Source: a virus. Taken from it: a stretch of DNA of 64,000 nucleotides. This document shows positions 8,893-56,800 of the stretch, in pieces (the stretch's first letter is position 1; the number at the start of each line of letters is the position of its first letter). The DNA lies in the IMG/VR virus record IMGVR_UViG_3300008448_000001, positions 1-64,000 of that record. The stretch is one strand, 5' to 3'. The position numbers and the translations under genes were made by a program. The notes under the pieces were generated by a model. The model searched no databases. It was not told the DNA's origin and saw only the letters and a list, made by a program, of their open reading frames with translations.

Positions 8893-10428
8893 ATGGGTAA
8901 AGAAGTTGTTTTGATAAAAAACGGGAACATTTTGCTTGTTGATCCGGGCGTTGCAGACCAGAAAATAGTGGATATTCTGGGGCCCAAGCTTAGTTTCGAA
9001 TCGTTCCGCAAACTGGTCGGGCGTGAACTGTACGACGCAAAAAGAAACGGTTTAAAGACCTTCGCTATTGATCGGCATATCCTTTTCGAGCTGGACTTCA
9101 AGGGCCGGGTTGCCACGCCGTTTGGGTTTTGGAAAACCATATCTGAAACGCTGAGGGCCGCTGGCTATTCTGTAAGCTACAAGGACAACACGCCGACTGT
9201 CGTGAATCAACAACATAAAGCCGCGAAAAACCGAGCTTTACGTTTTGAGATGTTCATGGATAACATTGCAAGCTATCAGTTGCGAGATCATCAACCGGAG
9301 TTCCTGGATGCCATCATCAGAAACAGCTGTGGACGAATAGACTGCGCACCGGGTTTCGGTAAATCTTTCATGATTGGAATTGTGGCCTCTGTATTCCCTC
9401 GTGCGAGGATCGACGTTGTTTCCAAGCGTGTAGCGGTTCTGCGGGACAGAATTTACCCGGAGCTCACTTCGATGGTGGGTGACGTGGGTATCGTTGGCGG
9501 AGGAAAGAGCATCAAGGATCGCCGAGTTATGTGCTACACGGCTAACTCGTTGAAGCACAGCAAGGCGGACGCAGACATACTGATCGGGGACGAGTGTCAC
9601 GAACTCGCGGCGGATAAGGCGTCAGAGGAGCTCGTTCGCTATCAGGACAGTCGAAATTACGGGCTGTCGGCCAGCCACGACGTTCGTTACGACAACAAGG
9701 ACATGCGTTTGGAGGGCATATTCGGGCCGATCATCTACCGTGTTCCGTACCAGACAGCCCAAGGCTCCGGCCTGGTTGTTCCGATCGAGATAAGATGGAC
9801 AAACGTTAGACTGGACTACAATCCGTGTGCAGGGGTGGACACGGACGATTCTGTAAGGCGTAAACGCATCGGAATATGGACCAACGAATTGCGTAACTTG
9901 GCTATTGCAAACGACGCGAAAGCTTACGACAAGGACACGCAGGTTCTAATCACGGTCGACACAATTACTCACGCTTTTCATCTCAAGAAGCTGCTGCCGG
10001 AATTTACGCTGGTGTACGCGGACGAGGGACTGACGCCCGAGGAGTTGCAGAATTACAAGCGGCAGAAGTTTTGCTCTGCAACGGAGCCGCTGATGGACTT
10101 CACAAGAAAGAAGATGCTGACGCAAAAGTTTGAAAAGGGAGAGCTCAAGAAAGTGATCGCGACAACGGTGTGGAATGTCGGTGTTTCGTTCAACAATTTG
10201 ACTGTGCTTATCCGAGGTAATGGCGGTAGCAGTGCGATCGACAGCACGCAGATTCCTGGTCGCGTAAGTCGTATTGCGGACGGTAAAACTTTCGGTATTA
10301 TCCACGACTACCTCGACGGTTGGGACAAAGGCTTTGATCGTCAAACTAAAGGCCGTCTCAAGGTTTATCGCCAGCACGGTTGGGCGCAGAAATTCCCTGA
10401 CTCGCACCTTGAAAGGCTTTATTCTTAA
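8893..10428 (+). CDS. uvsW: SF2 DNA helicase, UvsW-like
   Basis: 511 residues from ATG 8893, chosen because GGGA lies 6 bases upstream; ATG 8881 is the alternative, and the longer frame to 8815 would run through the hairpin. Motifs: Walker A APGFGKS with K about 157, motif II DECH with D about 233, motif III-like LSASHD, and motif VI QIPGRVSR at about 453-460. The N-terminal 100 residues are a separate module, as in T4 UvsW. Expected role: ATP-driven branch migration, fork regression and switching from origin- to recombination-dependent replication. Confidence 0.9.
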   Translation: MGKEVVLIKNGNILLVDPGVADQKIVDILGPKLSFESFRKLVGRELYDAKRNGLKTFAIDRHILFELDFKGRVATPFGFWKTISETLRAAGYSVSYKDNTPTVVNQQHKAAKNRALRFEMFMDNIASYQLRDHQPEFLDAIIRNSCGRIDCAPGFGKSFMIGIVASVFPRARIDVVSKRVAVLRDRIYPELTSMVGDVGIVGGGKSIKDRRVMCYTANSLKHSKADADILIGDECHELAADKASEELVRYQDSRNYGLSASHDVRYDNKDMRLEGIFGPIIYRVPYQTAQGSGLVVPIEIRWTNVRLDYNPCAGVDTDDSVRRKRIGIWTNELRNLAIANDAKAYDKDTQVLITVDTITHAFHLKKLLPEFTLVYADEGLTPEELQNYKRQKFCSATEPLMDFTRKKMLTQKFEKGELKKVIATTVWNVGVSFNNLTVLIRGNGGSSAIDSTQIPGRVSRIADGKTFGIIHDYLDGWDKGFDRQTKGRLKVYRQHGWAQKFPDSHLERLYS

Positions 10429-11222
10429 TGTTTTCGAAACCACCAAAACCTTCAAGTAGCTCCAAGCCTGTTCGCAATGAAGGTCTTTCGACCGACAGTC
10501 TTTCAGGTCATGTTTCGCTGTTCAAGCGGACGTATGTCTTAGAGCGTCGAGTTTTGGACATGTGTCGATCAGAGGGAGATTCCCCGGTATACAAGCCTGC
10601 GGCCAGTCTTGACGGCGGTAAACGATACAACACGCCGGAAGAGAAGTCGAAGCAGAACAGCTGGGAAGCAGCTTATCGCGCAGTTGCCTCCATCTGCAAA
10701 CCTGACACGCCGATCGAGTACGTTCGCATACTGTTCAACTCGCTACGGTACAGCTCGTTGCCGACTCCCAACGTGTTGCAGCTGGCTTCGGCGGCTAACG
10801 CGCAAATTGTGCGAGACTATGCAAAAGACGCGTTTAAGCGACTTCAGTCGAGTTTTATAACGGATTCGGCTAGAGCTAAAACGGAAATACTTTTGCGGCT
10901 CGGAGGGAAGGCCGGGACTAGGCAGGCTACGTTTACGGCGATATATTGCACCCTGCTGGATGCACGTTTGGGTTTATCTCCGCTTTACCGTTATTGTTTA
11001 GCGACGGATGCACTTCAAAAAGCACAGAACGAGCGTGAAGCTGGTGTGAACATGGATTTTGGAATTTCGCGTATGCAAACTTACGTGAAAGACTTGGAAT
11101 TCTTGGCAGCTTTCGACTACACCGTTTTTCCGGAAATTTACAGTTCGGTTTACGGAAGTAGTTTGCCGTCTGGTTTTAAAAAATTGGCTTTGTCTTTGGT
11201 GGATTCCGCCAGGGACGCGTAA
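10428..11222 (+). CDS. Hypothetical replication-operon protein
   Basis: 264 residues; ATG shares one base with the helicase stop (TAATG). Ser/Lys/Pro-rich first 25 residues, then an all-helical body without Walker motifs. It sits between the UvsW-like helicase and the DnaB-like helicase, the slot often taken by a helicase loader or an accessory factor, but nothing in the sequence proves that. Confidence 0.75.
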   Translation: MFSKPPKPSSSSKPVRNEGLSTDSLSGHVSLFKRTYVLERRVLDMCRSEGDSPVYKPAASLDGGKRYNTPEEKSKQNSWEAAYRAVASICKPDTPIEYVRILFNSLRYSSLPTPNVLQLASAANAQIVRDYAKDAFKRLQSSFITDSARAKTEILLRLGGKAGTRQATFTAIYCTLLDARLGLSPLYRYCLATDALQKAQNEREAGVNMDFGISRMQTYVKDLEFLAAFDYTVFPEIYSSVYGSSLPSGFKKLALSLVDSARDA

Positions 11223-43643: not shown

Positions 43644-43712
43644 ATGTGCGCTTGCGCTCAACCAAACATTAACGGGCATTATGGCTATCGTTGGCAACCT
43701 AAAGACGAGTAA
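43644..43712 (+). CDS. 22-residue miniprotein MCACAQPNINGHYGYRWQPKDE-type
   Basis: ATG 43644 follows AAAGGGGTTAAA and the frame stops at 43710-43712. The peptide begins MCACAQPNINGHYGYRW; the pattern M-C-x-C-x-Q-P-N-x-N-G-x(2)-G-Y-x-W is one I recognise from longer small proteins (about 50 residues) that are widespread in phages and bacteria. This copy is short, so it is a minimal or truncated form. Its stop lies inside a 20-bp repeat. Confidence 0.6.
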   Translation: MCACAQPNINGHYGYRWQPKDE

Positions 43713-43725
43713 CTGATACCAACAA
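43706..43725 (+). repeat. Gene-end repeat, copy 1
   Basis: CGAGTAACTGATACCAACAA; it contains the stop TAA of the 22-codon gene. Identical 20 bases recur at 44099-44118 and a 13-base part at 44790-44802. Confidence 0.85.
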
Positions 43726-43766
43726 ATGAGGAGTAAAATATTCCCTTTTCATTCATGGAGAAAATT

Positions 43767-44105
43767 ATGATTCGAGCAGAAGCGTGGAGCGATTGTCAAC
43801 AATTTAGGATCGAATTCGATGCAACTTTGTGGGCAGAGCAAGCCAGTGACAAAGCCTTAATTGATTTAGGCCAATGTGAATGTCGTGGGGATTATCCTGC
43901 CGATGATGTCGTTATGTTCATGGCTGATCACGATGAAAAGGCCGCAAGTCTATTTGAATTTATTCAGATAGTACAAACTCAACCATACAACGGCGACACT
44001 AACGGCTTTGAATGTGCAGTTGATGAAGATGATCTTCGTAAATGGCTGCAAGAGCATAAACCTCATCTTGTGGAACAAGTGTTTTCCGGGCTGTATTACG
44101 AGTAA
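43767..44105 (+). CDS. Hypothetical protein of the AT-richer cassette
   Basis: 112 residues; ATG 43767 is 6 bases after GGAG (ATG 43755 lies on the site itself). Acidic alpha/beta protein with ADHDEKAASLFEFIQIVQ and a polar C-terminal helix. Codons are visibly more AT-rich (GAT, AAT, TTG) than in flanking genes, hinting at a different origin. Not recognised. Confidence 0.75.
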   Translation: MIRAEAWSDCQQFRIEFDATLWAEQASDKALIDLGQCECRGDYPADDVVMFMADHDEKAASLFEFIQIVQTQPYNGDTNGFECAVDEDDLRKWLQEHKPHLVEQVFSGLYYE

Positions 44106-44118
44106 CTGATACCAACAA
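44099..44118 (+). repeat. Gene-end repeat, copy 2
   Basis: Exact 20-base copy of 43706-43725, again spanning the Glu-stop end of the upstream gene (GAG TAA), 393 bp further on. Confidence 0.85.
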
Positions 44119-44145
44119 TAAGGGCATCACTCGTTGGAGATTTTT

Positions 44146-44463: not shown

Positions 44464-44793
44464 ATGCTGAAACCGTATGTAATTCAAAATCAAAACGGCA
44501 CTGAGTGTTGGTCAAATCATGATGGGTGGGTTGACATAACATCAGCCACCCGATTCAGTGAACAAGAAAGACTCACAGTAAATCTTCCAATGTATGGCAG
44601 ATGGACTACACTGTGGGAAGTCAACAGTATTCAATTTGCTCGATTCATTGCGGAGTGTGAGGCTTGTGGAGTTTTCACCGACGAAGCTCGTCTTGAGGAA
44701 GTAGCTGAATCAATGGATCTGGACATTGATGAGGTTTTTGAACTTGTCAGTCGGGCACAAGAAAGTTGGGACGATTACAAAGCAAGTATCTGA
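44464..44793 (+). CDS. Hypothetical protein of the cassette
   Basis: 109 residues; TATGGAG lies 4 bases before ATG. N-terminal part polar with Trp residues, C-terminal helical region VFTDEARLEEVAESMDLDIDEV that looks like a small helix-turn-helix-like bundle. Its stop TGA lies in the third copy of the gene-end repeat. Confidence 0.72.
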   Translation: MLKPYVIQNQNGTECWSNHDGWVDITSATRFSEQERLTVNLPMYGRWTTLWEVNSIQFARFIAECEACGVFTDEARLEEVAESMDLDIDEVFELVSRAQESWDDYKASI

Positions 44794-44802
44794 TACCAAC
44801 AA
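44790..44802 (+). repeat. Gene-end repeat, copy 3 (partial)
   Basis: CTGATACCAACAA, identical to the last 13 bases of copies 1 and 2; TGA within it is the stop codon of the preceding gene. Confidence 0.7.
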
Positions 44803-44961
44803 GTGAAGCATCACTTTTCGAATCTTGCTTTGTGCCGTTCAGGCATTGTGGATTGTGTGGGCGGCGGCGCCGTCATTGAAAGATGGACAGCTTACAGTAT
44901 CCCTGAACTCAAAGAACTATTTAAGCTAGCTAAAAAGCAGCAAGAAAGGTGTCAAGCATGA
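44803..44961 (+). CDS. Possible small protein (52 codons)
   Basis: An open frame from GTG 44803 to TGA 44959-44961 encodes a polar protein ending IPELKELFKLAKKQQERCQA. It fills the 165-bp gap before the next gene, and its stop overlaps that gene's ATG (ATGA), as expected for a coupled upstream gene. The start is uncertain: GTG 44803 has no Shine-Dalgarno and lies right behind a repeat, so it may be a fragment of a once longer gene. Confidence 0.45.
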   Translation: MKHHFSNLALCRSGIVDCVGGGAVIERWTAYSIPELKELFKLAKKQQERCQA

Positions 44962-47226: not shown

Positions 47227-47240
47227 AGAAGGTGCATAAC

Positions 47241-47726
47241 ATGGTTGAGTGTGGAAGTATTGAGTCTCGCGGAACGAGACTTTTTCAAGCTTCGCAGACG
47301 ACAGCGGGTTTGGTCGGAATAGTGCTCAAAGTGCTTGACCTCCAGGACGAATTAAGCGCTACGCATAAAGACTTGTGCGAGGTGAATGACGAACTGCAGG
47401 CTGCCAAGGAAGCTTTGCAGGCTACCAAGGAAGCCTTGCAGGTCTCGCAAAGCGGGGCCAGCCCAGCGGCGACGATTTTTGAGTTTCCCGACGCAATCCG
47501 AATCTCGGAGTTTGCTACTGCGGACGGGTTCTTATCGAATCCGCCCGGCGAGGAGACTTGGATCGGCGCGCTCAGCCACAAAACTGAGCTGGACGTTCGG
47601 GCAATTCTCTCAGGATTGCCCACCGAGGTGGGCTTGCATAAGTTTCTAGCGGCCTACAAGAAGGGCGACAAACTGCTGCATGCTCTCATCAAGGTCTGGG
47701 TCGTTCCAGTTGCAGAGGAGAACTAG
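47241..47726 (+). CDS. Coiled-coil hypothetical protein
   Basis: 161 residues; AAAGAAGGTG before ATG 47241. Residues about 30-70 contain a heptad pattern with the imperfect repeat (E/Q)ALQATKEALQ. The C-terminal part is an alpha/beta module. No recognised family. The next gene starts immediately after the stop. Confidence 0.7.
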   Translation: MVECGSIESRGTRLFQASQTTAGLVGIVLKVLDLQDELSATHKDLCEVNDELQAAKEALQATKEALQVSQSGASPAATIFEFPDAIRISEFATADGFLSNPPGEETWIGALSHKTELDVRAILSGLPTEVGLHKFLAAYKKGDKLLHALIKVWVVPVAEEN

Positions 47727-47960
47727 ATGGCAACACCCCCAAACGTCAACAAGGTACGCCGCTACGAACAGTGGCGTACCGGACAACTTGACAGGCTTTA
47801 TAACAAGCCTTGCTGTTCTGCAAACGGTGACTACTTAGATGGTTGGTATAATCCAAGTCAGGTAGTTCCAGACTTTCTAACAGTCGGTGAAGCATTCACA
47901 TTGAAGCGTCATTTCGATTGTGCGTATGCTCGACAGTTAGAACAGTATGCCAAAGACTAG
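47727..47960 (+). CDS. Hypothetical small protein
   Basis: 77 residues; GAGGAG before ATG. Basic, with many Tyr/Trp/Arg (YEQWRTGQLDRLYNKPCC) and a C-terminal helix. Precedes the structured noncoding segment at 48.0 kb. Not recognised. Confidence 0.65.
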   Translation: MATPPNVNKVRRYEQWRTGQLDRLYNKPCCSANGDYLDGWYNPSQVVPDFLTVGEAFTLKRHFDCAYARQLEQYAKD

Positions 47961-47975
47961 CGAGACAAGGGCGAC

Positions 47976-48115
47976 CGGAATAGGGGCTTTGTAGCCGCTA
48001 TTCCGAGCAATGCAGACTGCCCGAAAACCGCATGAAGAAAGCCGTGCCCGAAGCGAAAGGGCTAGTGCGGAAGGTTATAAGACGGGTAGCTCCGGCAACA
48101 AATCCGGGCAGTCTG
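47976..48115 (+). ncRNA. Candidate structured RNA element
   Basis: Hairpin 1: CGGAATAG (47976-47983) pairs with CTATTCCG (47998-48005), with an inner GGCT/AGCC helix. A second domain is closed by a perfect 11-bp helix, CAGACTGCCCG (48013-48023) with CGGGCAGTCTG (48105-48115). Inside it are CCGCA/TGCGG (48028-48032/48066-48070) enclosing GCCC-GAAGCGAAA-GGGC (48046-48062), and a short CCGG/CCGG element. CGGGTAG at about 48083-48089 can compete for the first strand of the closing helix, giving two alternative folds. No open frame of note, no tRNA cloverleaf. No match to a class known to me; it could be a small RNA or a leader regulating the gene at 48.19 kb. Confidence 0.45.
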
Positions 48116-48119
48116 AATC

Positions 48120-48160
48120 GCTCTTTGCGTGATCACGCAAACGTAGAGCTGACAGTTTTT
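48120..48160 (+). terminator. Attenuator-like hairpin before the gene at 48.19 kb
   Basis: TTTGCGTGATCACGCAAA (48124-48141) is an 18-base perfect palindrome; GCTCT and AGAGC (48120-48124/48145-48149) extend the stem around a bulge. T5 follows at 48156-48160. It may end the upstream RNA or act as an attenuator with the structured element just before it. Confidence 0.5.
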
Positions 48161-48186
48161 AAGTAATACAAGCCAGAGGGCAAATG

Positions 48187-49059
48187 ATGACGAACACTAA
48201 TGAAAAGATAAAGCCAAAGCCGAAGTCAAAGGCAAAGCCGAAGCCGAAGAAAAAGCCGGAGAAGGGTTTAACGACTAAGGCTGAAAGAGATTTAGCGGAG
48301 AGCATTGGTTTTAAAGGCAGATACCTTTCTAAGTTGCTACAGGAAGCCGCAAAGTACTGTAAGTTTCAAGGCGGGCAATGCCTCCCGGATGCGGCCAGCT
48401 ACTTGCGTGAAATAGCAAGGCAGCACGCTGTGAAGGTAAAACAGCAGTGGGGAATGTCTGTTCGACAGTACAACCTGTTGCAAAAGAAAGCAAATTGGCT
48501 GCTCAGATCGTTTTCGACCGGTTATTCGATGGGGGAGCTGCGACGGCTTGTCGTCGACGGAAAGGACTTCTGCGTCGATGACAACCGGCGATACTATTCG
48601 AAATCTTACAGGTTCTCGGCAAAACACGGTGAAATCACTGTCCAGCTTACGCTGCAAGACTTGAAAAATATTAGGCGGATTGAAGGTGTCTGGACGGTTC
48701 GCCGCAAGGGGACAGCTGCAAGTTGGCTTGAGTCTCGCAGTTCACTCAGTAAATACCAGGTCACCATGGTCGACGGCCATTTGGTTGGCACATCGCACGG
48801 CAAAACCGTCGCAGAGTGTCACGGACTTGAAGCAGGAAAAGCTATTCGCAATGACACGGGAGAGGTCAAATTTCTCAACCGATTCATCGGGTTTGCAGAT
48901 CGAAGGCTCGCAGGGGCTTGCGAAATCGGCGTACGAGCCTTCTGTGATCGACACAATTTGAACATCGATTTCGGGTACCGGATCGATTTCTTATTGAGTC
49001 TTAACGACAACATTGCAGTACCTTACCTTGATCGCTTGGCGAAGAAGCTGCAGCGATAG
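48187..49059 (+). CDS. Hypothetical basic protein
   Basis: 290 residues from ATG 48187 (6 bases after GAGGG; ATG 48184 is too close). The first 40 residues are Lys/Pro repeats (KPKPKSKAKPKPKKKP), a likely nucleic-acid-binding or linker tail. The body is alpha/beta with repeated basic patches and a C-terminal helical region. Not recognised. Located behind the structured noncoding segment, so possibly controlled by it. Confidence 0.72.
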   Translation: MTNTNEKIKPKPKSKAKPKPKKKPEKGLTTKAERDLAESIGFKGRYLSKLLQEAAKYCKFQGGQCLPDAASYLREIARQHAVKVKQQWGMSVRQYNLLQKKANWLLRSFSTGYSMGELRRLVVDGKDFCVDDNRRYYSKSYRFSAKHGEITVQLTLQDLKNIRRIEGVWTVRRKGTAASWLESRSSLSKYQVTMVDGHLVGTSHGKTVAECHGLEAGKAIRNDTGEVKFLNRFIGFADRRLAGACEIGVRAFCDRHNLNIDFGYRIDFLLSLNDNIAVPYLDRLAKKLQR

Positions 49060-50828: not shown

Positions 50829-51182
50829 ATGTTAAATGTAGGCATTAAATGGCTTGCGACATTGCCGCAAGGCGGTCGCGAGTTAGTTCACGCAGACACG
50901 CCAGGCGAAGCGAGACGCGTCTTCAACGAAAAATACGGCAAATTGCCTTCCACGTTACGGCTCTTTTCAGGCTTTCCTCGCCTTTACGCGTTTGATCTGA
51001 TTTTCGGCGAAACGGTTTTTCGGCGTGATTTGTTTCCAGCGATTGACTCGAACGCGTGGGTCTTGATTGAGAGTCGGCACCGTTTGGAGGAGTATCTTTG
51101 CACCACTCCAGAGGTTGCCGTGTTTGTTCCACCGTTCCGCGCGACACCGGCAAGTCCGGGGCAGTGGCGAATGGAAGGCTGA
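50829..51182 (+). CDS. Hypothetical protein
   Basis: 117 residues from ATG 50829 (AAAGGC upstream). Alpha/beta with HADTPGEARRVFNEKYGKLP, suggesting a small domain related in style to other accessory-region proteins. No family recognised. Confidence 0.65.
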   Translation: MLNVGIKWLATLPQGGRELVHADTPGEARRVFNEKYGKLPSTLRLFSGFPRLYAFDLIFGETVFRRDLFPAIDSNAWVLIESRHRLEEYLCTTPEVAVFVPPFRATPASPGQWRMEG

Positions 51183-51248
51183 ACAAAAGAAGACCGTTTA
51201 ATCGGCTACTTCGTAGACTTTATTTTCACACTTAACAGGAAAGTTTTA

Positions 51249-54736: not shown

Positions 54737-56800
54737 ATGTCAAATGAAATGCAGGGCAAAAGCGAAACGAGCGAAATCAAGGATGAACGCCAGGGACCGG
54801 CGTCGCCTGGAGACGGTTATCGCTTCCTTGGGCCTAAGGAACTTGTTCTCGAAGGTGACGAGTTTTGGCACAATGAACTCGGATGGTTCGAGTCCAGAAA
54901 AGATAGTTGTCGTGACAAAAAGCAATCTAATTCGGTCAAATACCGACGTCGAAACAAGTTTAGCGAAGGTGAGTTTGTGCGGATTGTAAAGCCTTTAGAC
55001 GGGGCGACCGGATGGGGAGATTGGGCGGACGAACTTGACGGTAAGGTGGTTAAGATCACGCATTCTTCCCAGGACGGATTATATGATGGTGAATCGCATT
55101 GGTATCGACTGGAAGGTTGCTCCCTTCTGTACTTTCGCGCCGACTGGCTAGCCCCTGCGTCCGCCGAGGCGGCCAAGAAGACCGAAGAAGTTAAAGCACC
55201 GGCAGTCTCAAAGGATAAACGCCAGGGACCGGCGTCGCCTGGAGTCGGCTACCGCTTTCTTGAGCCCGAGGAACTTGTCGTCGAGGGCGACGAGTTTTGG
55301 TCCGGGATTGACAGCCGGTGGGAGGCCAGCGGTATGTACCGCCACAAGGGGGAGCAAGCTGCTCGTTTGTACCGTCGCCGCAACGAGTTCAAAGACGGTG
55401 AAATGGTGCGGGTCGTGAAACCTTTGGATGTCGAGCAGGAACCAAAGTGGGTGGAAAGCATGGACGGCTTTGACGGCCAGATACACGCTGTTCACAGCGC
55501 GGCACTAAAGTCTGGCCGTTTCCACTATTTCCTTCAAGGCACTGAAACTTGGAAGTTCAACGGCGACTGGCTAGCCCCTGCGTCCGCTGAACAAAAGGCC
55601 GAGGAAGCCAAAAAGGCCGAAGCGGGCGGGGAAGCTAAAGCAACGGCAGTCTCGAAGGATAAATGCCCAGGATCGGCAGAGCCTGGAGACGGTTACAGGC
55701 TCCTTGACCCTAGGGAACTTGTCGTCGAAGGCGACGAGGTTTGGAGTTATCAAAACACATGGATCAGTTCCGGAAACTATAGACGTAGCGGCAGGGAACA
55801 ATCGAATACTGCCAAGTATCGACGCCGCAACAAGTTCGCCGTAGGTGAACTTGTGAGGATCGTCAAGCCGTTGGACACAAAGGTCGGGCCGGGATGGCTG
55901 TCTTGTTTTGATCGCTGGATCAATGAAAACAAGGTGTTTACCATCGCCGAGTCAACACCCTCGCGCAACTACGAGGTCGCGGAAAACTGCTACTCCTTTG
56001 CCCCGAACTGGTTAGCCCCAGCCTCCAAGGAGCAAAAGGCCCAGAAGGAAGAGGAAGCCAAAAAGGCCGAGGAAGCCAAAAAGGCTGAGGAAACCAACAA
56101 GGCCGAGGAAGCCAAAAAGGCCGAGGAAGCCAAAAAGGCTGAGGAAACCAAAAAGGCCGAAGAAGACCGCCGTTGCCCGGCAGAACCGGGCGAAGCCTAC
56201 CGTTTCCTTGACCCCAAGGAACTCGTCGTCGAAGGCGACGAGGTTTGGGCATGTGCTAGCTCTGGTGGCTACGAGTGGGTGCCTACCTTAAACCACCGCT
56301 CGGCGGCTGGGAAACAAGGTGCTGGGTTTAGGTATCGTCGCCGCAACAAGTTTGCCGAAGGCGAACTTGTGAGGATCGTGAAACCTTTGGAAACGCCTGG
56401 GCCGCACGGGTGGGTAACTGCGATGAACGCGCTTGACGGCAGGGTAGGCACGATCAGGCTTTCTTTGCAGGGTAGTGAATCGTGGTACAAGATGAAAGAC
56501 TGTTTCCTCTGGCGCTTTTACGGCGACTGGCTAGCCCCTGTGCCAGCCAAACAAAAGGCTGATGAAGCCAAGAAGACCGAGGACGCAGACAAGGTAGCTG
56601 AAGTCGCGGCTACTGACCCGTGGCTATCACCCACAACAGACACGGTCGAACGTGCGATAACGCCACTTTTTGCGGTAAATGTTCACGCACCGTTTACGTT
56701 GCAAGACCTTGCGGAATTCGTGATGGCAGCGAAAAAAGAAAACGGCGAGTATTTCACCCTTCGGCTGGAGGGGGATTGGCTTCAGATTGGCCGAGATTAG
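54737..56800 (+). CDS. Large tandem-module protein with four EGDE/KOW-like repeats
   Basis: 687 residues; GAAAGGAAATAACG before ATG. Four repeats begin at about residues 25, 168, 317 and 484, each of two parts: (i) GYRFLxPxELVxEGDE(F/V)W to YRRRN(K/E)F, (ii) an SH3/KOW-like part with (V)VRIVKPLD, a Trp segment and an ending DWLAP. Lys/Ala/Glu linkers separate them, the third one six 6-residue units long. The C-terminal 70 residues are a separate module with APFTLQDLAEFVMAAKK. This style of GYRxLExxE repeat is known in phage proteins of unknown role. Multivalent binding is inferred. Confidence 0.85.
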   Translation: MSNEMQGKSETSEIKDERQGPASPGDGYRFLGPKELVLEGDEFWHNELGWFESRKDSCRDKKQSNSVKYRRRNKFSEGEFVRIVKPLDGATGWGDWADELDGKVVKITHSSQDGLYDGESHWYRLEGCSLLYFRADWLAPASAEAAKKTEEVKAPAVSKDKRQGPASPGVGYRFLEPEELVVEGDEFWSGIDSRWEASGMYRHKGEQAARLYRRRNEFKDGEMVRVVKPLDVEQEPKWVESMDGFDGQIHAVHSAALKSGRFHYFLQGTETWKFNGDWLAPASAEQKAEEAKKAEAGGEAKATAVSKDKCPGSAEPGDGYRLLDPRELVVEGDEVWSYQNTWISSGNYRRSGREQSNTAKYRRRNKFAVGELVRIVKPLDTKVGPGWLSCFDRWINENKVFTIAESTPSRNYEVAENCYSFAPNWLAPASKEQKAQKEEEAKKAEEAKKAEETNKAEEAKKAEEAKKAEETKKAEEDRRCPAEPGEAYRFLDPKELVVEGDEVWACASSGGYEWVPTLNHRSAAGKQGAGFRYRRRNKFAEGELVRIVKPLETPGPHGWVTAMNALDGRVGTIRLSLQGSESWYKMKDCFLWRFYGDWLAPVPAKQKADEAKKTEDADKVAEVAATDPWLSPTTDTVERAITPLFAVNVHAPFTLQDLAEFVMAAKKENGEYFTLRLEGDWLQIGRD
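56051..56158 (+). repeat. Six 18-bp tandem repeats encoding EEAKKA units
   Basis: Units starting GAGGAAGCCAAAAAGGCC run at 18-base steps from 56051 to 56158, in frame, encoding (E-E-[AT]-[KN]-K-A) six times. Low-complexity helical linker DNA, prone to slippage. Not a CRISPR: no spacers, fully coding. Confidence 0.9.

Follow-up and report, generated by a model that had tools for sequence, protein, structure and literature searches.

In the jumbo phage PhiKZ, Northern blots reveal an abundant RNA of ~100 nt derived from the 3′ UTR of PHIKZ298 and a second RNA of ~180 nt derived from the 5′ UTR of p40 (PMC8545117). Structured phage RNAs are also described as leaders, an example being RCd22 upstream of abiF (RF03085), which illustrates the switch and antitoxin roles such RNAs may take (PMC12373285). 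Here we compare with these systems a folded, gene-free stretch in a 64,000-base piece of viral DNA (hereafter, the window) that constitutes bases 1–64,000 of the 204,794-base record IMGVR_UViG_3300008448_000001. Given the length of the record and its genes for an SbcC-like protein, helicases, and a family-A DNA polymerase with a UDG domain, the source is a jumbo phage. The record also carries two tRNA genes (70737–70811 and 170235–170309), one of which has the anticodon UCA and would read UGA.

The stretch of interest (47961–48183) follows the stop codon of a 77-aa gene (47727–47960) and precedes the start of a 291-aa gene (48184–49059), with a 164-aa gene (47232–47726) further upstream, all on the plus strand. 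An earlier note on this DNA described the stretch as free of genes, and we agree: it holds no convincing gene, only a pair of ATG ORFs of 40 and 44 aa that overlap each other, in DNA that is absent from a sister phage. The neighbouring genes matched no family in Pfam, PHROGs, NCBIfam, PADLOC, or the PDB, and AlphaFold returned no usable model of the 291-aa protein (pLDDT 37). The 77-aa protein contains a motif, G-x-x-D-R...P-C-x-S-A-N-G-x-Y-L-D-G-W-Y, that it has in common with a sister protein encoded at another locus. Elsewhere in the window, an intergenic repeat, AGTAwCTGATACCAACAA, precedes small genes (43708–43738, 44101–44131, and 44785–44815) and may mark phage promoters or start sites, and a 114-nt repeat occurs three times at a spacing of 432–444 nt within a 687-aa ORF (54755–55876).

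The structure at 47961–48183 is real and statistically solid. The full 223 nt fold with a minimum free energy (MFE) of −82.9 kcal/mol (z −3.7), matched by none of 200 dinucleotide shuffles, so the dense structure reported in the earlier note stands; its reader missed the helix that closes it. In that outer helix, AAGGGCGA (47967–47974) pairs with TCGCTCTT (48118–48125) over 7–8 bp, including a G-U pair, and closes a three-way junction; its pair probabilities are mostly 0.93–0.97 in the unit alone and ~0.73 in the 223-nt context. The compact unit thus delimited (47966–48125, plus strand) has an MFE of −69.9 kcal/mol (z −5.2) that none of 300 shuffles equalled, and its fold is better defined on the plus than on the minus strand (ensemble defect 0.10 vs 0.22). 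The junction holds two elements already recognised in the earlier note, both with pair probabilities of 0.95–1.0: a hairpin of 8 bp at 47976–48005, which a second short stem extends, and a perfect 11-bp helix formed by CAGACTGCCCG (48013–48023) and CGGGCAGTCTG (48105–48115), a perfect inverted repeat of this length occurring in only one of 300 shuffles. The latter surrounds two inner stems, one with an A-rich internal loop (48028–48070) and one at 48073–48104. Enrichment of A at unpaired positions of the fold did not exceed that in shuffles. An 18-base palindrome is present as reported (48124–48141), but it belongs to the leader of the 291-aa gene rather than to the folded unit; 16 of its 18 bases are kept in the sister phage. 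The T5 run mentioned with it in the earlier description (48156–48160) begins only 14 nt past it, which is not the geometry of a terminator, and a terminator scan did not report it.

Only one sister phage, IMGVR_UViG_3300016476_001599, covers the locus. It carries the 291-aa gene at 89% amino acid identity, with its start aligned to the second ATG (48187), and BLASTN finds 92% DNA identity from window position 48121 rightwards, a point within the 3′ strand of the outer helix, with no homology immediately to the left. The proximal leader of the gene is also recognisable (79% over 63 bp). The folded unit is absent from the sister, where unstructured sequence (z −0.85) takes its place upstream of the short proximal leader; the 291-aa gene therefore exists without the folded unit. 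Because the 3′ end of the unit coincides with the start of sister homology, the unit behaves as a separate module. The genes to its left (164 and 77 aa) have diverged homologues elsewhere in the sister. The 3′ end of the unit coincides with a cassette boundary, and the unit lies on the border of a shuffled cassette of accessory genes.

No homologue of the unit was found in Rfam, phages, plasmids, IMG/VR, GTDB, or 12 related phage records. Rfam, at the gathering threshold and at E 10, returned only chance matches to unrelated families, and BLASTN of the unit against annotated phages returned none. Exact and gapped pattern scans of IMG/VR and GTDB genomes, which require near-exact words and covered some incomplete records, gave matches that looked coding, none of which scored with a covariance model of the unit. 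That model (R1), built from a single sequence, found only itself in its own genome (next best, 8.5 bits) and nothing in the 12 phage records. A BLASTN search of this kind served as a positive control when run with another folded, gene-free gap, at 84 kb of the record: it found a homologue in a distant phage. Two candidates were set aside: a 52-nt BLASTN match to a Variovorax plasmid (E 0.01) overlaps an annotated gene end and was judged to be chance, and similarities at 63.2 and 158 kb of the phage's own genome reach only the level of shuffled queries.

We put at about even the chance that the unit is a lineage-specific structured RNA, situated between two genes of a jumbo-phage accessory-gene cassette and persisting as a stable RNA. 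With a sister that lacks it and no other copy detected, the unit looks like an RNA that is specific to its lineage but belongs to a known kind, and not like a conserved switch; by analogy the most likely identity is an intercistronic RNA derived from a 3′ UTR, comparable to the UTR-derived ncRNAs of PhiKZ. The evidence for this reading is that the fold is significant (z −5.2) and better defined on the plus strand, that the unit starts 6 nt past the stop codon of the 77-aa gene and closes on itself, and that the most folded window of the sister adjoins its homologue of the 164-aa gene. Against it, no homologue was found in which covariation might show, the folded stretch of the sister is not recognisably the same RNA, and a scan detected neither a sigma-70 promoter pair nor an intrinsic terminator where the unit begins and ends. 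The suggestion in the earlier note of a phage small RNA is still the best reading, whereas the leader role offered beside it is disfavoured (below).

An RNA of this kind would belong to the plus-strand transcript of the 77-aa gene, as its 3′ UTR, or would start on that strand from a possible promoter, TGGTATAAT, at 47844–47852. The transcript would fold into the closed three-way junction, the flanking mRNA would be cut, and the folded piece would persist, either as a small RNA or as an element that shields the messages on either side and keeps them apart. The plus strand of the genome has a single TGNTATAAT (47844–47852), which ends ~113 nt upstream of the unit. It is only a candidate promoter, since its TGGTAT encodes a W-Y pair also found in the sister protein and TATAAT is no more frequent than a low-order Markov model predicts.

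It is unlikely that the stretch has no function and is decayed or chance-structured filler left by the shuffling of cassettes. Conservation is not detectable, and dense structure is not unique to this stretch: among the record's ~33 gene-free gaps of 120 nt or more it ranks only fifth by z, others folding equally or more strongly, and fixed-grid 160-nt windows of the region are unexceptional genome-wide (rank 188 and 430 out of 2558). Terminator-type hairpins are present in some of the more strongly folded places. Yet none of 300 shuffles matches the fold of the unit, a perfect 11-bp helix arises in just one of 300, and the unit persists among tightly packed genes. Further strongly folded gene-free gaps in the same record lie at 201483–201844, which holds a ~30-nt inverted repeat (CTTATCCATATTTTCATTATCCTAACGGATAA), at 166024–166856, at 66371–66801, and at 167415–167623, which contains terminator-type hairpins.

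We regard as improbable a cis-acting leader of the 291-aa gene, whether riboswitch, attenuator, or translational control, a role that the earlier note had proposed. The unit does directly precede that gene, both are on the plus strand, and no terminator separates them; a second pairing is also possible, in which CGGGTAG (48083–48089, in the second inner stem) takes 48017–48023 as its partner; this could form transiently during transcription, before 48105–48115 is made. The pairing is possible as the note had it, but a balanced two-fold switch built upon it lacks energetic support, since in an equilibrium model the alternative costs 9.8 kcal/mol and has a probability of ~2e-5. Nor is there an output for a riboswitch or attenuator in the form of a terminator or a sequestered ribosome-binding site: the sequence around the ribosome-binding site of the 291-aa gene is not specially folded (z +0.4), and the leader downstream of the unit contains the palindrome hairpin and is otherwise not specially folded. 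No riboswitch family in Rfam matches, and the view that no tRNA, known ribozyme, or riboswitch fits was confirmed with ARAGORN and Rfam. Also against a leader, the sister has the gene and its proximal leader with unstructured sequence in place of the unit, so that, on the basis of one sister, the unit is not conserved with the gene it would control. No tandem repeat of the kind that typifies type III toxin-antitoxin RNAs (~35-nt repeats before a toxin gene) occurs in 47961–48183.

Somewhat more doubtful is that the structure acts as DNA, either as a 119-bp inverted-repeat unit (48005–48123) or as a recombination junction at the edge of the shuffled cassette. A 19-nt inverted repeat (89%) bounds such a unit, the homology breakpoint is only a few bp from its right end, the surrounding genes are rearranged between the two phages, and a nearby insertion in the sister is flanked by a 12-bp direct repeat. 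That insertion, of ~1.07 kb (9984–11083 in the sister segment, vs 51182–51195 in the window), carries the homologue of the 164-aa gene; the direct repeat is AACAATAGAAGT, present in the window as a single imperfect copy. On the other side, a MITE-like element would be expected to show a target-site duplication and further copies, but no such duplication was seen around 48005–48123, the arm is not repeated elsewhere in the window, and the unit has no duplicate in the genome; nor does a recognisable transposase adjoin it. Moreover, the best closed unit also takes in the left hairpin and the outer helix with its G-U pair, which favours RNA.

Also doubtful, and slightly more so, is a new RNA class, in which the 160-nt three-way-junction RNA and the 164-aa gene would form a mobile two-part cassette, the RNA working with that protein. 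In the sister, too, where the 164-aa gene lies at a different site, a strongly folded stretch free of genes comes after it: the most folded window in 12.9 kb of the sister (10641–10800, z ~−5.7) follows the homologue of this gene and consists of a hairpin and then a closed two-stem domain. The two stretches have in common a weakly matching 30-nt segment (GCAACAA...AGTCTGAATC). As a homologue of the unit, the sister stretch was rejected: model R1 gives it only 6.8 bits, 35 of 2000 shuffled pairs reach the level of the sequence match, and no comparable structure occurs in a third phage, which carries a distant relative of the 164-aa gene.

Very remote is a degenerate group I-like ribozyme, with 48017–48023 and 48083–48089 as P3 and AGAC (48080–48083) and GTCT (48111–48114) as P7, since, although the possible pairings resemble in their order the P3/P8/P7 of group I introns (RF00028), there is no match to Intron_gpI even at E 10, no space for P6 between 48070 and 48080, and the P3 would disrupt the far more stable 11-bp helix. 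The letters around GACGGG also bring group I cores to mind.

Sequence comparison singles out another stretch of the same record, outside the window, whose claim to be a new conserved phage RNA is far stronger than that of 47966–48125. This gene-free stretch (84046–84270; z −7.3 over 273 nt) has a homologue at positions 1500–1735 of a segment of the distant jumbo phage IMGVR_UViG_3300034107_000725. These two sequences, the only ones compared, covary: in 7 of 38 consensus pairs both bases differ while the pairing is retained. Immediately upstream both have GATATAA(T), and the stretch has no Rfam match. Setting the two side by side shows which folded intergenic stretch merits bench work first. 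If expressed, the lineage-specific unit at 47966–48125 would be a well-defined addition to the small number of noncoding RNAs described in jumbo phages, and would show that such RNAs can be gained and lost as fast as accessory genes.

How the unit relates to the described systems can now be stated. Like RCd22 and the RF03085 family, it is structured and immediately precedes a phage gene encoded on its own strand; unlike them, it has no RF03085 match, no repeated motif, and no terminator, its downstream gene matches no defence family, and the sister has that gene without the RNA. The PhiKZ ncRNAs differ in having two stem-loops and a possible terminator, in place of a three-way junction and none, and in having been detected by Grad-seq and Northern blot, the present unit being predicted from sequence (PMC8545117). 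The likenesses are a jumbo phage, a gene-free stretch that follows a stop codon or precedes a gene, stem-loop structure, and no small ORF with a strong Shine-Dalgarno sequence. The unit is, as in PhiKZ, a gene-free, strongly structured stretch abutting a phage gene, and it looks like an orphan among phage RNAs, but of a kind that other large phages are already known to have.
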